A model generated the notes under the pieces. That model was not told the DNA's origin, did no database searches, and was given only the letters and a program-made list of their open reading frames with translations. A program made the position numbers and the translations under genes. From contig DASVBS010000042.1 in the NCBI GenBank assembly GCA_036375715.1, positions 1 to 38,077 of the forward strand: 38,077 nt of DNA. The letters are read 5' to 3'. Within the stretch, counting starts at the first letter, position 1. Every line of letters begins with the position of its first letter. The stretch is from Longimicrobiaceae bacterium. GTDB taxonomy: Bacteria > Gemmatimonadota > Gemmatimonadetes > Longimicrobiales > Longimicrobiaceae. This document shows positions 3,215-12,974 of this stretch, piece after piece.

Positions 3215-3646
3215 TCAGCCATTTTCGTCGGGGACGAGAGCGCAGTTCCCCACGTCCGCACAGCCACACGCCAGTCCGGCTCGAACCGCCCGCTTCATCC
3301 TCTCCGCCCGCGCGATCCTCTCGTCCAGCTCCCGCAGCTTCGCCTGCGCGAGCGCCTCCCAGCGTTCGCTCAGAGGTGTGTCCGCCCTGAAGCCGTGGAT
3401 CAGGGTGCGGATCTCGTCCAGCGTGAACCCCGCCAGCTGGGCGAAGCGAATCAGCTCCAGTAGCCGAACAGCCTCCGGGGCGTAGCGTCGCCGTCCATGA
3501 ACCCGCTCCGGTGGCGGCAGCACGCCCGCCTCCTCGTAGTAGCGAATGGCGGAGGTCCTCAACCCCGCTCTCCGCGCAACCTCGCCGATGCCGAGGGTGT
3601 CGGTCCGTCCCCTTGACTTCAAGTCGACTTGAACTGGTAGCGTCAT
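3215..3646 (-). CDS. MerR-family transcriptional regulator with C-terminal Cys-x-Cys motif
   Basis: This is a 143-residue MerR-type regulator. It has a winged helix-turn-helix (LGIGEVARRAGLRTSAIRYYEEAGVLPP, about residues 18-45), the RRYAPEAVRLLELI segment, a dimerisation helix (about 90-120), and a C-terminal tail CGCADVGNC with Cys127, Cys129 and Cys135 as likely ligands. Such tails hold metal ions or, in SoxR, a 2Fe-2S cluster; SoxR has four cysteines, so a thiophilic metal is more likely here. The ATG at 3646 gives about 17 residues before the domain, and the operator-promoter then lies inside the coding sequence. A TTG at 3622 would give a more usual N-terminus but has no visible ribosome site. 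It is divergent from the Cys-Cys protein gene at 3688, its probable target. Confidence 0.88.
   Translation of the reverse strand: MTLPVQVDLKSRGRTDTLGIGEVARRAGLRTSAIRYYEEAGVLPPPERVHGRRRYAPEAVRLLELIRFAQLAGFTLDEIRTLIHGFRADTPLSERWEALAQAKLRELDERIARAERMKRAVRAGLACGCADVGNCALVPDENG
3613..3643 (+). promoter_or_regulatory. MerR-type promoter with palindromic operator
   Basis: A -35 hexamer TTGACT (3613-3618) and a possible -10 TAGCGT (3638-3643) are separated by 19 bases. The spacer holds the perfect 16-base palindrome TTCAAGTCGACTTGAA (3618-3633). A long 19-20 base spacer with a central dyad is the hallmark of promoters that MerR-family activators untwist. It points rightward to the gene at 3688 and resembles the layout of ZntR-controlled promoters. 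Confidence 0.75.
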
Positions 3647-3687
3647 GGCGTCGCAATCGAGTTCACCTGTTCACGAGGATCGTGATC

Positions 3688-4014
3688 ATGACGACGACCG
3701 AAACGAGCATGCCCATTCCGCTGGCGTGTGTGCCGGGCGCAATTCCGGAGGCCGAGCGCCCGCTCCACTTTGCCCTGATCCGGAGGTTGTTCGACGAGAC
3801 GGTCGAGGAGCGTGAGCCGATCCCCAATGGCTATGCCTTCCGGTTTCCGGCGGACGCCCTCGAACCGCTGAGCCGCTTCCTGCTCAACGAGCGGAAGTGC
3901 TGCCCGTTCCTCTCCTTTGCGCTCGAAGCCGCGCCGGCTGGTGGCCCGGTGTGGCTGCGGCTCGCGGGTCCGGAAGGAACCCGGGACTTTCTGGATGCCG
4001 AGCTCGGGCTCTGA
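3688..4014 (+). CDS. Small Cys-Cys protein of metal-resistance loci (function unknown)
   Basis: This 108-residue soluble protein starts at the ATG at 3688, nine bases after a GAGG ribosome site. A longer upstream reading frame only crosses the merR promoter and is not used. The visible marks are Cys14 in PLACVPGAIP, a GYAFRFP strand, the vicinal pair Cys71-Cys72 in NERKCCPFLSFAL, and GPEGTRDFL near the end. I recall similar small proteins next to mer-like or other thiophilic-metal regulators, but none with a proven function that I can name. The vicinal cysteines plus Cys14 could bind Hg, Cd or Pb. It sits directly behind a MerR-type promoter, which supports metal-induced expression. Its last 184 bases overlap the 3' end of the antisense P-type ATPase gene. 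Confidence 0.75.
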   Translation: MTTTETSMPIPLACVPGAIPEAERPLHFALIRRLFDETVEEREPIPNGYAFRFPADALEPLSRFLLNERKCCPFLSFALEAAPAGGPVWLRLAGPEGTRDFLDAELGL

Positions 4015-6248
4015 GGAGGAACCCAGGACGCCCGCAGGCCGTTCAGCACCACCAGCAGGCTCGCTCCCATGTCGGCGAGGACGGCCATCCAGAGCGTGGC
4101 GTAGCCGAGCAGCCCCAGGAGCACGAACGCCGCCTTGGTGACCAGCGCGAAGGCGATGTTCGCGCGGATGATCCGCTCTGCCCTGCGCGCCAGCCGGATG
4201 GTGGTGGAGAGTCTGGAGAGATCGTCGGACATGAGGGCGATGTCGGCGGTCTCCAGGGCCACGTCGGTCCCCGCTGCGCCCATGGCCACGCCCACGTCGG
4301 CCGCGGCCAGCGCGGGCGCGTCGTTGACGCCGTCACCCACCATCAGGATCATGCCGTGCTCGCGGCGAAGCTCCCGGACGGCGGCCACCTTGTCGTGCGG
4401 AAGGAGCCCGGCCCGGACGCCATCCAGGCCGCGGCCGGGTCGGCCCAGGGCGTCGGCAACGGCCCGCGCCGTGCCCGGGTGGTCGCCGGTGAGCATGACC
4501 ACCTGCCGGATGCCGGCACGGTGCAGCTCGCGGAGCGCATCGGCGGCCTCAGGGCGGGGCTCGTCGGCGAGCGCGATCACGCCGCGCAGCCGCGGCGGCG
4601 TCCTATGACCGACCGGTCGACTCGCCACGAGGACGGCGGTCTGGCCGCGCGTGGACAGCTCGTCCAGCAACCGACGCGCGGGGGCAGGGAGGGCCCCATG
4701 TTCTTCGAAGAGCCGGGCACTGCCGGCATAAACCTCCTCGCCGTCCACCTGGGCGCGGACGCCGCGGCCGACGATCGCAGAGGCGTCCCGCGCCGCGCGG
4801 AGTGCGATCCCTCTCGATACCGCGTGGCGCAGGATCGCGCGGGCGAGCGGATGCTCGCTCCGCGCCTCGACCGATGCGGCCAGCGCCAGCATGTCGTTGG
4901 GGTCCTCCCCGTCCAGGGCAACGACGTCGACGACCGCGGCTTCCCCCCGCGTCAACGTGCCTGTCTTGTCCAGTGCCACGGCGCGCACACGCCCCGCGTT
5001 CTCCAGGTGCAGCCCGCCCTTGATCAGGATCCCGCGCCGTGCCGCCCCCGCCAGCGCGGAGACCACCGTCACTGGCGTGGAGATCACGAGTGCGCAGGGG
5101 CAAGCGACCACCAGCAGCACCAGCGCGCGGTATCCCCACTCGCCCCAAACCCCGAGCCCGAACAGCGGAGGAAGGATCCCGACCAGCACCGCCCCTCCCA
5201 CTACCAGGGGCGTGTAGACATGCGCGAAGCGATCCACGAAGGTCTGGCTGGGCGCGCGGGTCGCCTGCGCTTCCTCCACCGAGTGGATGATCCGAGCGAG
5301 CGTGGTGTCCGAGGCGAGCCGGGTCGAGCGGATCTCGAGCGCGCCCTCGCCGTTCAGGGTGCCGGCGAAGACTTCGTCCCCGACCCCTTTTCCCACCGGG
5401 ATCCATTCTCCGGTGATGGGCGCCTGGTTTACACTCGAAGCGCCGGCCACGATCTCGCCGTCCACGGGGATCCTGGCGCCGGGACGCACCAGCACCACTT
5501 CACCCGGCCGCACCCGGTCCGGCGGGACCCGCACCTCCTCGCCATCGCGGATCACCACGGCCTGCGCGGGGGCCAGCTCCATCAGGCGCCGGATGGCGTT
5601 GCGCGCGCGGCCCATGGAGCGAGCTTCGAGGAGCTGCGCCACGGCGAAGAGGAACATCAGCGACCCGCCCTCCTCGTAGGCGCCGATTACCAGCGCGCCA
5701 ACCGCGGCCACGGACATGAGGAAGTTCATGTCCAGGGCACCCTGCCGGAGCGCCTGCCAGCCGCGCGGGAAAACTCTCCACCCGCCCGTGAGTACCGCGG
5801 CCAGCGCCAGCACGGGCACCGCCCACTCGGTCGCTGGCCAGTAGCCGGTCAGAAGGGCAAGGCCCCAGAACAGCCCGGAGAGAACCACGAGCGTCAGGGT
5901 GCCCTGGCGCGCCCACCACCGTTCCCCGGCTTCCGATGAGGTCGCGCCCGCCGACTCCTCCCCCGCCGGCGCCTCCTCCTCCGCGCGATAGCCGAGGCGC
6001 TGAACCGCCTCGACCAGGTCGCCACGCTGGATCTGGTCTGCTACGTGGCGCACCGTGACCCGCTCGCCGACGAGATCCGTGCGCACGTCCTCCACGCCCG
6101 CGAGCGCTAGTAGCGCCTTCTCCACCTTCAGCGCGCAGCTCGAGCAATCCATTCCGCCGACGCTGATCGTGCTGGTCAGGACCGCCGCTCGGTCTCCGCC
6201 GGACTGCGGAACGGAATTCCGGGACAGGCCGCTCACGACCCTGTGCAT
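3831..6248 (-). CDS. Heavy-metal (Zn/Cd/Pb) exporting P1B-type ATPase, ZntA/CadA-like
   Basis: From the ATG at 6248 the protein is 805 residues; an ATG at 6344 is also possible. The open frame back to 6659 runs antisense through the arsR-type gene and is not coding. Visible parts are an N-terminal heavy-metal-associated domain with GMDCSSC (residues 32-38), membrane helices from about 115, the actuator motif TGE (279-281), the ion-site CPC (383-385), the phosphorylation loop DKTGT (Asp427), and the hinge GDGVNDAPAL. CPC with GMDCSSC and the CmtR-like partner fits export of Zn, Cd or Pb rather than Cu. After the usual end of the family (VVLNGLRASW) the frame continues for about 60 low-complexity residues, antisense to the Cys-Cys gene, to a TAG at 3831. 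It is divergent from the ArsR-type repressor. Confidence 0.9.
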   Translation of the reverse strand: MHRVVSGLSRNSVPQSGGDRAAVLTSTISVGGMDCSSCALKVEKALLALAGVEDVRTDLVGERVTVRHVADQIQRGDLVEAVQRLGYRAEEEAPAGEESAGATSSEAGERWWARQGTLTLVVLSGLFWGLALLTGYWPATEWAVPVLALAAVLTGGWRVFPRGWQALRQGALDMNFLMSVAAVGALVIGAYEEGGSLMFLFAVAQLLEARSMGRARNAIRRLMELAPAQAVVIRDGEEVRVPPDRVRPGEVVLVRPGARIPVDGEIVAGASSVNQAPITGEWIPVGKGVGDEVFAGTLNGEGALEIRSTRLASDTTLARIIHSVEEAQATRAPSQTFVDRFAHVYTPLVVGGAVLVGILPPLFGLGVWGEWGYRALVLLVVACPCALVISTPVTVVSALAGAARRGILIKGGLHLENAGRVRAVALDKTGTLTRGEAAVVDVVALDGEDPNDMLALAASVEARSEHPLARAILRHAVSRGIALRAARDASAIVGRGVRAQVDGEEVYAGSARLFEEHGALPAPARRLLDELSTRGQTAVLVASRPVGHRTPPRLRGVIALADEPRPEAADALRELHRAGIRQVVMLTGDHPGTARAVADALGRPGRGLDGVRAGLLPHDKVAAVRELRREHGMILMVGDGVNDAPALAAADVGVAMGAAGTDVALETADIALMSDDLSRLSTTIRLARRAERIIRANIAFALVTKAAFVLLGLLGYATLWMAVLADMGASLLVVLNGLRASWVPPQSPSSASRKSRVPSGPASRSHTGPPAGAASSAKERNGQHFRSLSRKRLSGSRASAGNRKA

Positions 6249-6432
6249 CGAACGATTCGCGGGCCTCGACGTGGCTGGAGACAGCGCCCGCCGTGGAAGG
6301 GAACCCCAGACGGCGCGGAGGACTTCGCAGAGGTTCCGGACCATCCTCCGTCCAGGTCGACTTGCGCCCTTGACGGACCACCTCAGATCGCTCTGCGACT
6401 CCCTTGACCGCAGCGAGGCGCACAAAGTATCA

Positions 6433-6470
6433 TCTGACGCTGATATATCATGCATCAGCATACGCTGATA
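6433..6470. promoter_or_regulatory. ArsR/SmtB-type operator region
   Basis: Between the divergent ATPase and arsR-type genes lie clustered TGAT half-sites. GCTGAT (6439-6444) and ATCAGC (6454-6459) form one inverted repeat with a 9-base spacer. The same ATCAGC with GCTGAT (6464-6469) forms a second one with a 4-base spacer. The block ends just before the ArsR start at 6475. Its position and AT-rich dyads fit repressor sites that silence both genes until metal binds. Confidence 0.65.
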
Positions 6471-6474
6471 CGCA

Positions 6475-6846
6475 ATGGCCCCTCCGTCCAGGCATATGCT
6501 CACCACCGAGTTCGCCCGGTCACTCGCCCTCAAAGCCAAGCTCTTCCGCGGGTTCTCCGACCCCTCCCGGCTGGCGATCGTGGAGTCTTTGCGGGTGGAA
6601 CCGCGGAGCGTGACCGAGATCGTGGAGATCACCGGCCTCTCCCAGCCGAATGCCTCCAATCACCTGGCTTGTCTGCTGGACTGCGGGTTGGTGACGCGCG
6701 AGCAACGGGGGCGCTTCGCCTTCTACAGGTTGGCGGACGAGCGGGTCGGTGCGCTGCTCACGGTGGCGGACGAGATCCTCAGCGACGTCGCGCACGGCGT
6801 GTACGTCTGCCCCCGATACGAGTCGCCGGGTGAGGATGCGGCTTGA
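6475..6846 (+). CDS. ArsR/SmtB-family metal sensor, CmtR-like
   Basis: This is a 123-residue winged-helix repressor (KLFRGFSDPSRLAIVESL, then LSQPNASNHLACLLDCGLV as the recognition helix, then GRFAFYRLAD as the wing). Cys66 and Cys70 in HLACLLDCGLV match the position of Cys57 and Cys61 of mycobacterial CmtR, and Cys112 near the C-terminus (VYVCPRY) could be the third ligand, as Cys102 is in CmtR. CmtR senses Cd and Pb through these three cysteines, so the same ligands are likely here. The ATG at 6475 follows directly on the operator; an ATG at 6496 would start closer to the domain. The gene is divergent from the P-type ATPase, the expected regulated exporter. Confidence 0.9.
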   Translation: MAPPSRHMLTTEFARSLALKAKLFRGFSDPSRLAIVESLRVEPRSVTEIVEITGLSQPNASNHLACLLDCGLVTREQRGRFAFYRLADERVGALLTVADEILSDVAHGVYVCPRYESPGEDAA

Positions 6847-8452: not shown

Positions 8453-9455
8453 TCACGCGCTTGAATCCCCCGCCTCCGCCTCTCCCGTCCCAGGTGGGAT
8501 CATCATCACAGCCAGGAGCGCGAGGACGGCGTAGGTTGCCATCACCAGGAAGAGCGGGCCGTAGCCCCCGAGCAAGTCGAACAGCATGCCGTTGAGCGGA
8601 TCACCGACGGCGCCGCCCAGTCCCATGCACAGCAGGTAGAGCGAAGCCAGAACACCACGCAGCGAGGGGGGTACGGGCTCCACGAAGAGCGGGTAGGCGT
8701 TCACGGTGGGGAAGGTCCAGGCGGCTGAAGCGAGCAGCAGTAGCGGCATTGCCTGTCCGATCTGCGTCACCCGGTCCAGCGCGGCCAGGCACGCGGCGAG
8801 GAGCGCGAAGCCGAAGAGGATCGACATCCTCCGACCGACGCGGATACCGAAGAACCCGGCCGGAAGTGCGCCGAGCACTCCGCCGACCGCCCAGGCAATG
8901 AAGCCCAGCGTGGCCTCCTCCGGCGTAATCCGAAGCGCTCCGTGGCGTGCAGGGCGAACCAGGTGGTGAAGGTCTGGAAGGTGAGCTGGAGGAGCAGCAC
9001 GGCCAGGAAGATGGCGCGCATGCTCGAGACGGCGCCCCGCAGCGTCGCCCACGTTGCCCGAGCAAGGGAAGCGAAGGAGACCTCGGCGCCGGACGTGCCC
9101 CCGGTTGGCTCTCGCACGCCGACGCGCAGCGCCACAGCGATTGCGAGGATCGTCACTCCGGCCGTCACGAATGCCGGGGTCATGCCCAGGAGCCGGCCGA
9201 GCATGAGGAAAGCGATTGCGCCGACGCACATCTGGAAGGCCACCGACGCCGTTGCCAGGGAGCGATCGCGGGAGGGGACCGCGTCGGCGATCAGTGCCTG
9301 GAAGGGAGATCGCTGCAGGTTGATCCCGGTGTAGAGCAGCACCAGAGCGGCGATCAGGACGGCGAGCCCCACGCTCGCGGAGGCCGGGAGCAGCGCCATG
9401 CCGAGGGAGGCGAGCACCATCCCTCCCAAGCTGGAACGATGTCGCTTGCCGAGCG
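8453..9455 (-). pseudogene. Broken MFS transporter (5' truncated and frameshifted)
   Basis: Two overlapping reading frames on the minus strand together encode most of a major facilitator permease. The upstream frame gives SLGMALLPASASVGLAVLIAALVLLYTGINLQRSPFQALIADAVPSRDRSLATA and the next helices to FALHATERFG. The downstream frame resumes with ITPEEATLGFIAWAVGGVLGALPAGFFG and runs to the stop at 8453. The break is near 8932-8938 and would be mended by one extra A in the FG-IT codons. The first two helices are also missing: sequence upstream of about 9455 has no membrane character. Two separate lesions argue for a pseudogene rather than a single sequencing error. The PFQALIADAVPSRDRS loop resembles sugar-transporter-like MFS members. 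Confidence 0.8.
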
Positions 9456-9749
9456 GGGGCGCAAGCGGAACCGTCGCTGCCTGATTTTCAGCAGCGGAGA
9501 GCGATTCGAGCATCGGACGGCGATCCACCGGCTCAGAAAGGCTCGATCGCCCGAAAGAGGTAGGTTCATCGCGCTCTGGAAGGCAGCTCATTGCCGCAGG
9601 AAGGCGCCACATGTCGCCTGCCGGCAATCACCTCGCCGCCGCGCAATGGGCTTTGAGTCAGTCAACGAGAGGCGGCGCGGGCGCAATTTTGCTATCATTA
9701 GGGCACACCGGTTCTCCGCGATGTGCCACTCACCGATCAGGAAGCGGAA

Positions 9750-11840: not shown

Positions 11841-12974
11841 TCAGCTCCCGCACGCAGCGGCCTTCTCACCCGCCAGACCGAGGGTGCTGAGGAGCTCCTC
11901 CACCGCCGCGCGCCCCGCCCGATTCGCTCCGATGGTCGACGCGGAGGGACCGTAGCCGACCAGGTGGATCCGTGGATCCTTGGCCACCTGGGTAGCGAGT
12001 CGTCCGGTCATCACGATCCCGCCATTCGGTTCGCGCAGCATCAGCGGCGCCAGGTGGTCCAGGGAACTGCGGAAACCCGTGCACCAGAGGATCACGTCGG
12101 CCTTCAGCTCCGTGCCGTCCGGCCAACGAACGCCGTCCTCGGTGATCTCGCTGAACATCGGCAGCCGCTCCAGGACGCCCCGTGCCCGCATCGCTTCGAT
12201 CGCCGGGGTTAGTGGGATTCCGGTGGCGGAAACCACCGAACCGGGTGGGAGCCCCCGACGCACGCGATCTTCCACCAGCGCCACTGCCTGACGCCCCAAC
12301 TCTTCATCGAAGGGAACATCGAGGAACTTCGGTGGGCGTCGGGTGACCCAGGTCGTGCGGGTGACCCGCGAGATCTCGTCGAGGAGCTGGATTGCGGAGA
12401 TCCCCGCGCCCACGACGATCACGTGCTGGCCTTCGAACTCCTCTGGTGTGCGGTAGTCCCGCGTGTGTAGCCGGCGGCCTCGGAACTTCTCCGCTCCAGG
12501 AATTTCGGGGATGTTCGGGCTCTCCCAGGTGCCGGTGGCGTTGATGATCCCCCGGGCGGAGAACTCGATCCGGTCGGTCTCCAACCGGAAGCGGCCGTCA
12601 CGCTCACATACCACCCGCACCGTCACCGGGCGGTAGACGGGTAGCTCGAACCTCTTCTCGTACTCGGCAAAGTAGCGCGGTACCGCGACGCTGGCCTGGA
12701 CATCGAGTGCGCCGTCTTCCACCACCTCGGAGAAGCGCATCCCCGGAAGATCGTGGATCCGGTTGACGGTGCTCAGCGTCAGCGAGGGCCAGCGGTACTG
12801 CCAGGCACCGCCCGGCTCCGGGGACGAGTCGAGCACCTCGTACTCCCGGTGCGGCTTCAGGCCACGCCTCTTCAAGTGATACGCCGCGGAGAGGCCCGCC
12901 TGTCCCGCTCCGATCACGACGATCTCGGTTTTAAGGGCGACGCCCGAAGTGGTGCTGCGTGGCGAGGGGGACAT
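11841..12974 (-). CDS. FAD/NAD(P)-binding oxidoreductase, CzcO/flavin monooxygenase-like
   Basis: The 377-residue protein has two Rossmann dinucleotide motifs: GAGQAGLSAAYHL near residue 22 for FAD, and VVGAGISAIQLLDE about halfway for NAD(P)H. Between them lies an ATGTWESPNIP segment typical of group B flavin monooxygenases and the CzcO family. Members oxidise small organic or sulfur compounds or act as thioredoxin-reductase-like enzymes; CzcO was named for its association with cation efflux but its role is not settled. The ATG at 12974 is used; the first domain begins soon after it. The gene lies tail-to-tail with ilvD and upstream of, but in the same direction as, the sulfatase gene, with no sign of a shared pathway. 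Confidence 0.8.
   Translation of the reverse strand: MSPSPRSTTSGVALKTEIVVIGAGQAGLSAAYHLKRRGLKPHREYEVLDSSPEPGGAWQYRWPSLTLSTVNRIHDLPGMRFSEVVEDGALDVQASVAVPRYFAEYEKRFELPVYRPVTVRVVCERDGRFRLETDRIEFSARGIINATGTWESPNIPEIPGAEKFRGRRLHTRDYRTPEEFEGQHVIVVGAGISAIQLLDEISRVTRTTWVTRRPPKFLDVPFDEELGRQAVALVEDRVRRGLPPGSVVSATGIPLTPAIEAMRARGVLERLPMFSEITEDGVRWPDGTELKADVILWCTGFRSSLDHLAPLMLREPNGGIVMTGRLATQVAKDPRIHLVGYGPSASTIGANRAGRAAVEELLSTLGLAGEKAAACGS

Follow-up and report, generated by a model that had tools for sequence, protein, structure and literature searches.

The analysed window, a stretch of 38,077 nucleotides from a Longimicrobiaceae bacterium, carries a putative MerR-controlled metal-response unit whose effector comes from an apparently undescribed protein family. 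This effector, here called the CC protein, has a cysteine near its N-terminus (C14) and a vicinal pair (C71-C72), and its gene is read divergently from that of a MerR-family regulator. The explanation that we favour, to which we give an even chance of being right, is that it is a MerR-induced thiol protein that would bind As(III)- or Hg(II)-like ions and serve as a chaperone or buffer.

The divergent regulator and its promoter

The regulator gene lies at 3215..3646 on the minus strand, and its product scores above the cut-offs of three Pfam models (MerR_1, 66.9 bits vs 21.6; MerR, 46.4 vs 28.2; MerR-DNA-bind, 50.3 vs 25.4), which places it in the MerR superfamily. Its C-terminus harbors a CXCX5C motif formed by C127, C129 and C135, numbered from the ATG at 3646. 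This start is uncertain, given that the operator then falls inside the coding sequence, and a TTG at 3622 is a possible alternative. The relatives found by sequence in the PDB are 5crl, 6ldi and 2zhg (MerR, CueR and SoxR). Like these activators, the regulator combines a helix-turn-helix domain with a dimerisation helix, C-terminal cysteines and a 19-bp-spaced promoter with a central dyad; it differs from them in the CXCX5C motif, in the operator TTGACTTCAAGTNNACTTGAA, in having the CC gene as target and in scoring under all the equivalog cut-offs tested, including those of CueR (73.5 bits vs 147.4), ZntR (52.9 vs 167.95), CadR-PbrR (51 vs 151.45) and the mercury-responsive MerR (TIGR02051, 55.4 vs 150.85).

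Within NCBIfam the regulator is closest to SoxR (TIGR01950), with 79.9 bits, under the cut-off of 116.9. This resemblance hints at a different function, in which the vicinal cysteines of the CC protein would form a disulfide and the unit would answer oxidative or electrophile stress, a role that we consider unlikely. SoxR holds its [2Fe-2S] cluster with four cysteines, CX2CXCX5C; the regulator displays CXCX5C only, lacking the first of these four ligands, and so falls outside SoxR.

The promoter/operator upstream of the CC gene occupies 3613..3643 on the plus strand, with a -35 hexamer TTGACT (3613-3618), a spacer of 19 bases (3619-3637) and a -10-like TAGCGT (3638-3643). A perfect 16-bp (8+8) dyad, TTCAAGTC/GACTTGAA, spans 3618-3633; its first base coincides with the final one of the -35 hexamer and the other 15 of its 16 bases are inside the spacer. 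The target promoter thus displays, at the level of sequence, the 19-20 bp spacer and central dyad that characterize the MerR superfamily. A sigma-70 scan limited to spacers of 16-18 nt returned no promoter within 3550-4100, as expected for a MerR-type promoter with a 19-bp spacer. With up to 3 mismatches allowed, the window contains the operator consensus a single time, and 100 dinucleotide shuffles do not contain it at all. The initial annotation had already described the long spacer with its perfect dyad, which we find in place, and its assignment of a MerR-type promoter is borne out by the divergent MerR gene of the unit itself and by the recurrence of the operator in family loci.

The neighborhoods of family members were surveyed with tblastn at 91 loci, window included (92 were given, one of which, L050, could not be placed), and since flank lengths vary all neighbor counts are lower bounds. 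A MerR gene was found at 44 of the 91 loci, within 300 bp of the CC gene in 29 and both divergent and upstream in 34; the examined flanks of the other 47, of varying length, gave no MerR match. The operator (up to 4 mismatches, within 400 bases upstream) is present at 32 of the 91 CC genes, window included, against a shuffled mean of 0.05, the consensus having been composed after viewing these loci and the -10 element lying outside the pattern. TAnnnT follows exactly after a 19-base spacer in 30 of the 32, and the putative promoter is conserved across phyla.

A MerR gene accompanies 28 of the 32 operators, and of the 29 loci whose MerR gene is no more than 300 bp away, 22 have the operator. 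The MerR C-termini were read at 28 of the 44 MerR loci, and 19 of them carry CXCX5C (the exceptions being L028, L035, L043, L044, L049, L053, L059, L062 and L090). The operator is present at 17 of the 19 loci whose MerR has the motif, compared with none of the nine whose MerR lacks it. In 17 Gemmatimonadota stretches, 8 of them already among the 91 loci, a close MerR gene is present in five and the operator in the same five, with neither in the remaining 12. In one of these five the MerR gene follows the CC gene on the same strand, and both could there be driven by the operator. The idea that the operator is specific to CC genes was rejected, because a second perfect copy, the only further one that the genome holds, serves a paralogous CXCX5C MerR; these patterns tie the operator to the CXCX5C MerR subfamily and not to the CC gene. 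The paralogous gene is located at 5414-5884 on the minus strand of contig L183 and its operator copy at 5895-5915, separating it from a divergent small membrane protein of unknown function (6114-6581, plus strand).

The CC protein and its family

The CC gene, 3688..4014 on the plus strand, is preceded by a likely ribosome-binding site, GAGGA, at 3675..3679 on the same strand. The frame is also open from a GTG start that would give a 167-residue version; the ATG at 3688 is preferred on account of the family alignment and of GAGGA. The product contains the 108 residues, Cys14 and vicinal Cys71-Cys72 that had been annotated, together with E68, and its gene is present as a single copy in the genome. 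It matched no family at E <= 1 in either Pfam or NCBIfam. The ArsD and HMA models of Pfam gave no match to it at E <= 1, nor to ten family members at E <= 10; these ten members together hit two different Pfam families, one member each, with E values of 0.025 and 0.11, and two further members had no NCBIfam match at E <= 0.01. No description of the family was found in the titles and abstract openings of the open-licence literature, and the passages available from PMC6920998, PMC6514093 and PMC6947025 do not mention it. Within these sources, the suggestion that the protein is possibly undescribed stands.

The CC protein is a member of a widespread family. Among 99 genomes searched, including that of the window, 12 gave a match, of which 8 were judged to be real members (one broken) and 4 to be chance; the chance-looking matches (L009-L012) were dropped before counting, and the broken member (L007, minus strand) was excluded from alignments. 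Scanning genome contigs with the single CC protein as query returned no relative, and the same scan with a ten-sequence profile (A1) returned 206, the best 80 of which were kept. The titles among these best 80 of 206 include Chloroflexi, Acidobacteria, Gemmatimonadetes, Bacteroidetes, Bacillota-type genera, Myxococcaceae, Rubrobacter and others. Within the phylum of the window, Gemmatimonadota, a profile search found a member in 19 of 249 genomes.

Four residues, C14, E68, C71 and C72, are shared without variation by all 85 aligned members. The A1-profile scan used the pattern ERxCC[PA]F, which forces the vicinal pair and biases its count in the scan-derived rows, leaving C14 unforced; the search of the 99 genomes used no such constraint. 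The alignment (A2, 85 rows) leaves out near duplicates (L041, L061, L084), truncated members (L073, L087) and one that lacks C14 at the chosen start (L094). C14 and the pair are also retained in all 19 members from the search of 249 genomes, where no such pattern was imposed, even in the weakest, and in each of 12 plasmid members examined, including fusions and haloarchaeal and rhizobial members. The cysteines on which the proposed metal binding depends are therefore conserved in homologues. That C14 is kept as strictly as the pair argues against the thiol-redox role mentioned above. Some members (L039 at 5947, L085 at 5971, L089 at 5971, L059 at 5926) start with a possible signal peptide, recognised by eye, which suggests that exported versions may exist.

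An AlphaFold2 model of the CC protein built from 80 sequences (pLDDT 92.2, pTM 0.82) shows a predicted H-EE-H-EE-H fold, in which C71 would close the second long helix and C14 would sit in the N-terminal loop. Foldseek found no solved structure at E <= 0.001 with this model. The top VIA match was the C-terminal domain of the arginine repressor ArgR (Z 8.3, rmsd 3.2, 81 residues aligned), with a Z near the range that the tool calls common; pterin carbinolamine dehydratase (PCD) and MerB are not among the 50 VIA matches listed. The ArgR C-terminal domain and DCoH-like proteins represent a fold class. The CC protein has a like order of helices and strands but lacks a sequence-profile signal to this class. 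Homology to PCD, an idea based on its HHP and the CCP of the family, or to the ArgR C-terminal domain was rejected, since hhalign probabilities were 0.14% for PCD/DCoH and 0.67% for ArgR-C, and 13 control neighbor clusters gave 0.04-0.76%. A PDB sequence search with the CC protein found no match at E <= 10, and with the CC profile three matches, the best at E 0.31.

Genomic companions and the candidate ligand

The gene beyond the CC gene, convergent to it, encodes a P1B ATPase with an HMA domain at 4031..6237 on the minus strand (approximate limits, within an open frame of 3831-6659), identified with Pfam and NCBIfam. It exceeds the cut-offs of the NCBIfam heavy-metal subfamilies, and the motifs read by eye (GMDCSSC, CPC, the lysine of TM7 and DxG in TM8) presumably assign it to the P1B-2 class (Zn/Cd/Pb-type). 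Its frame has no stop until 3831, so that it overlaps the CC gene in antisense for about 180 bases (3831-4030, minus strand), and the last ~60 residues fall outside the ATPase models. Divergent from the pump, at 6475..6846 on the plus strand, lies a gene for an ArsR/SmtB-family, CmtR-like repressor (Pfam, NCBIfam), which scores 55 bits with the CmtR model, under its cut-off of 150. An 18-bp imperfect inverted repeat (78%) between the two genes, at 6427-6471, is likely the operator of this repressor, and the pump is probably a transcription unit separate from the CC gene.

In the initial annotation the CC protein was a candidate for metal binding or delivery, placed next to this pump, which can be read as delivery of Zn/Cd/Pb to it. 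The adjacency stands, and a Myxococcaceae bin (L059) shows the same MerR-CC-pump-ArsR order, with a MerR that lacks CXCX5C; the functional tie fares poorly, considering that the pump is convergent, lies beside its own CmtR-like regulator and has a P1B counterpart at 8 of the 91 loci, window included. We regard delivery to this pump as extremely improbable.

Elsewhere in the window, an ArsO-like flavin monooxygenase is encoded at 11841-12974 on the minus strand (NF040505, E 9e-94, 314.7 bits vs a cut-off of 425); situated 8 kb from the CC gene, it is the sole arsenic-type enzyme recognised among the window frames scanned. At 8453-9627 (minus strand) two overlapping frames look like parts of a single membrane transporter (MFS-like by eye), possibly split by a frameshift; neither part has an NCBIfam match.

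Across the 91 loci, YnfA was found at 21, ArsR-family regulators at 15 (a count that takes in the Cd/Pb-type regulator of the window itself), ArsM-like proteins at 14, eight of them at E <= 1e-50, and ACR3/SBF permeases at 6. Rarer companions were the zinc domain of CopZ (4 loci), a MerF-like peptide (3), DoxX (2) and MerA (2). At least one of ArsM-like, ACR3/SBF or ArsR-family proteins is present at only 25 of the 91 loci, and 29 have none of the companions sought; the operator is present at 4 of these 29. NCBIfam confirmed one YnfA, two ArsM and one CopZ-type protein among the neighbors. Pfam, applied to 129 of 177 nearest-neighbor frames (crude gene calls, with some shadow frames), identified MerR in 23, YnfA in 9, ArsR-type HTH in 5, SBF in 2, Thioredoxin_8 in 2 and many unrelated families. 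An arsenite methyltransferase above the family cut-off is encoded in 32 of 50 host genomes, and in the flanks of 4 of the 50 loci (L023, L042, L046 and L061, the last two being close relatives), compared with an expectation of about 0.06 for 32 matches spread over 50 genomes of ~6 Mb. The companions point to arsenic or mercury chemistry more than to a pump, even with 29 of the 91 loci lacking any of them.

Among 17 annotated plasmid regions, hand-picked from search matches, 10 hold an SBF-type permease and three an ACR3-annotated one, with one region having both; YnfA is found in 6, further ars genes in 6, an organomercurial or alkylmercury lyase in 4 and merA in one. The lyases and merA are consistent with a mercury-specific version of the unit, in which Hg(II) or organomercury would be sensed and retained by the regulator and the CC protein and then delivered to enzymes of the MerA or MerB type. 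Small membrane peptides, MerF-like by eye and each with a Cys-Cys pair inside the chain, could serve the same chemistry: they were seen in L013-L015 and L099, adjoining the CC gene or a fusion of it (L013 4702-4938, L014 4732-4983, L099 5303-5614), and that of L014 matched nothing in NCBIfam and no Pfam model above its cut-off. Considering that MerA occurs at 2 of the 91 loci, that arsenic-type companions are commoner and that the regulator of the window is far under the mercury MerR cut-off, we judge this version unlikely. Thioredoxin/redoxin and CcdA genes lie near a CC member in two plasmids which, along with the two Thioredoxin_8 frames, would suit the thiol-redox role, although metalloid genes are the commoner neighbors.

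The CC domain forms the C-terminal part of a MerR protein in all seven actinobacterial plasmid records examined, in one open frame with C14 and the vicinal pair intact. The hosts are Rhodococcus, Streptomyces and Mycobacterium plasmids, and the proteins are annotated as MerR family or heavy metal-responsive regulators. Immediately upstream of the fusion, six of the seven records have a promoter-like site whose spacer is 20 bases long, its dyad having 9/9 pairs in three, 8/9 in one and 6/9 in two (these sites were read without a shuffle control). The fused regulators thus share with the window unit the CC domain, its three cysteines and, in six of seven, a MerR-type promoter-like site, and differ in being one polypeptide instead of two genes and in the 20-bp spacer. 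The existence of such fusions speaks for a common pathway of the two proteins, with the signal handled by the CC part.

The fusion also bears on a catalytic role for the CC protein. MerB works with two cysteines and an aspartate, and by analogy two cysteines and E68 of the CC protein might cleave carbon-arsenic or carbon-mercury bonds. In agreement with this, E68 is as invariant as the cysteines, and arsenite methyltransferase and alkylmercury lyase co-occur with the family at some loci. Fusion to a regulator, on the other hand, better suits a binding domain; the CC gene accompanies, and does not replace, the lyase at the four lyase loci, and no profile similarity was detected to the one haloarchaeal MerB compared by hhalign (probability 0.7%). 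We therefore hold such an enzyme to be very unlikely.

For the binding protein that we favour, As(III) or a related arsenical would be the likeliest ion, and Hg(II) the next; arsenic is preferred over mercury because of the companion counts. The companions mix arsenic, mercury and thiol-redox genes, and the genome of the window, which is 95% complete, has no match to YnfA or ACR3/SBF at E <= 0.001; both facts weigh against a firm choice of ion.

Proposed mechanism and relation to known systems

In the proposed mechanism, the divergent MerR-family activator would sit on the over-long, 19-bp-spaced promoter, and binding of a soft, thiol-loving toxic ion to its CXCX5C motif would untwist the DNA and switch on the CC gene. 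The CC protein would then bind the same ion through C14 and C71-C72, as chaperone or buffer, and may hand it to whatever export or detoxification enzyme the host has.

ArsD, an arsenic metallochaperone with a vicinal cysteine pair and further thiols, is encoded in ars operons. The CC protein is likewise small, carries vicinal cysteines plus a third and is found among ars genes at part of the loci; unlike ArsD, it has the ERxCCPF motif, shows no Pfam relation at E <= 1 and adjoins a MerR gene rather than being ArsR-controlled.

More broadly, and with rather less confidence than not, we propose that the CC domain is an undescribed, portable module for metal(loid) binding by three cysteines, shared by bacteria and haloarchaea. 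On its own it would be a main product of a dedicated CXCX5C-MerR regulon and, fused to MerR, it would act as a second sensing domain, the whole constituting an arsenic/mercury response system apart from the classical ArsR and mercury MerR systems.

A hypothetical protein can in this way be linked to a regulator, a characteristic promoter, three invariant cysteines and toxic-metal companions, which make its function directly testable. The combination of C-x56-CC with the operator provides a search handle for arsenic or mercury modules that have gone unrecognised, both in uncultured phyla and among environmental plasmids.
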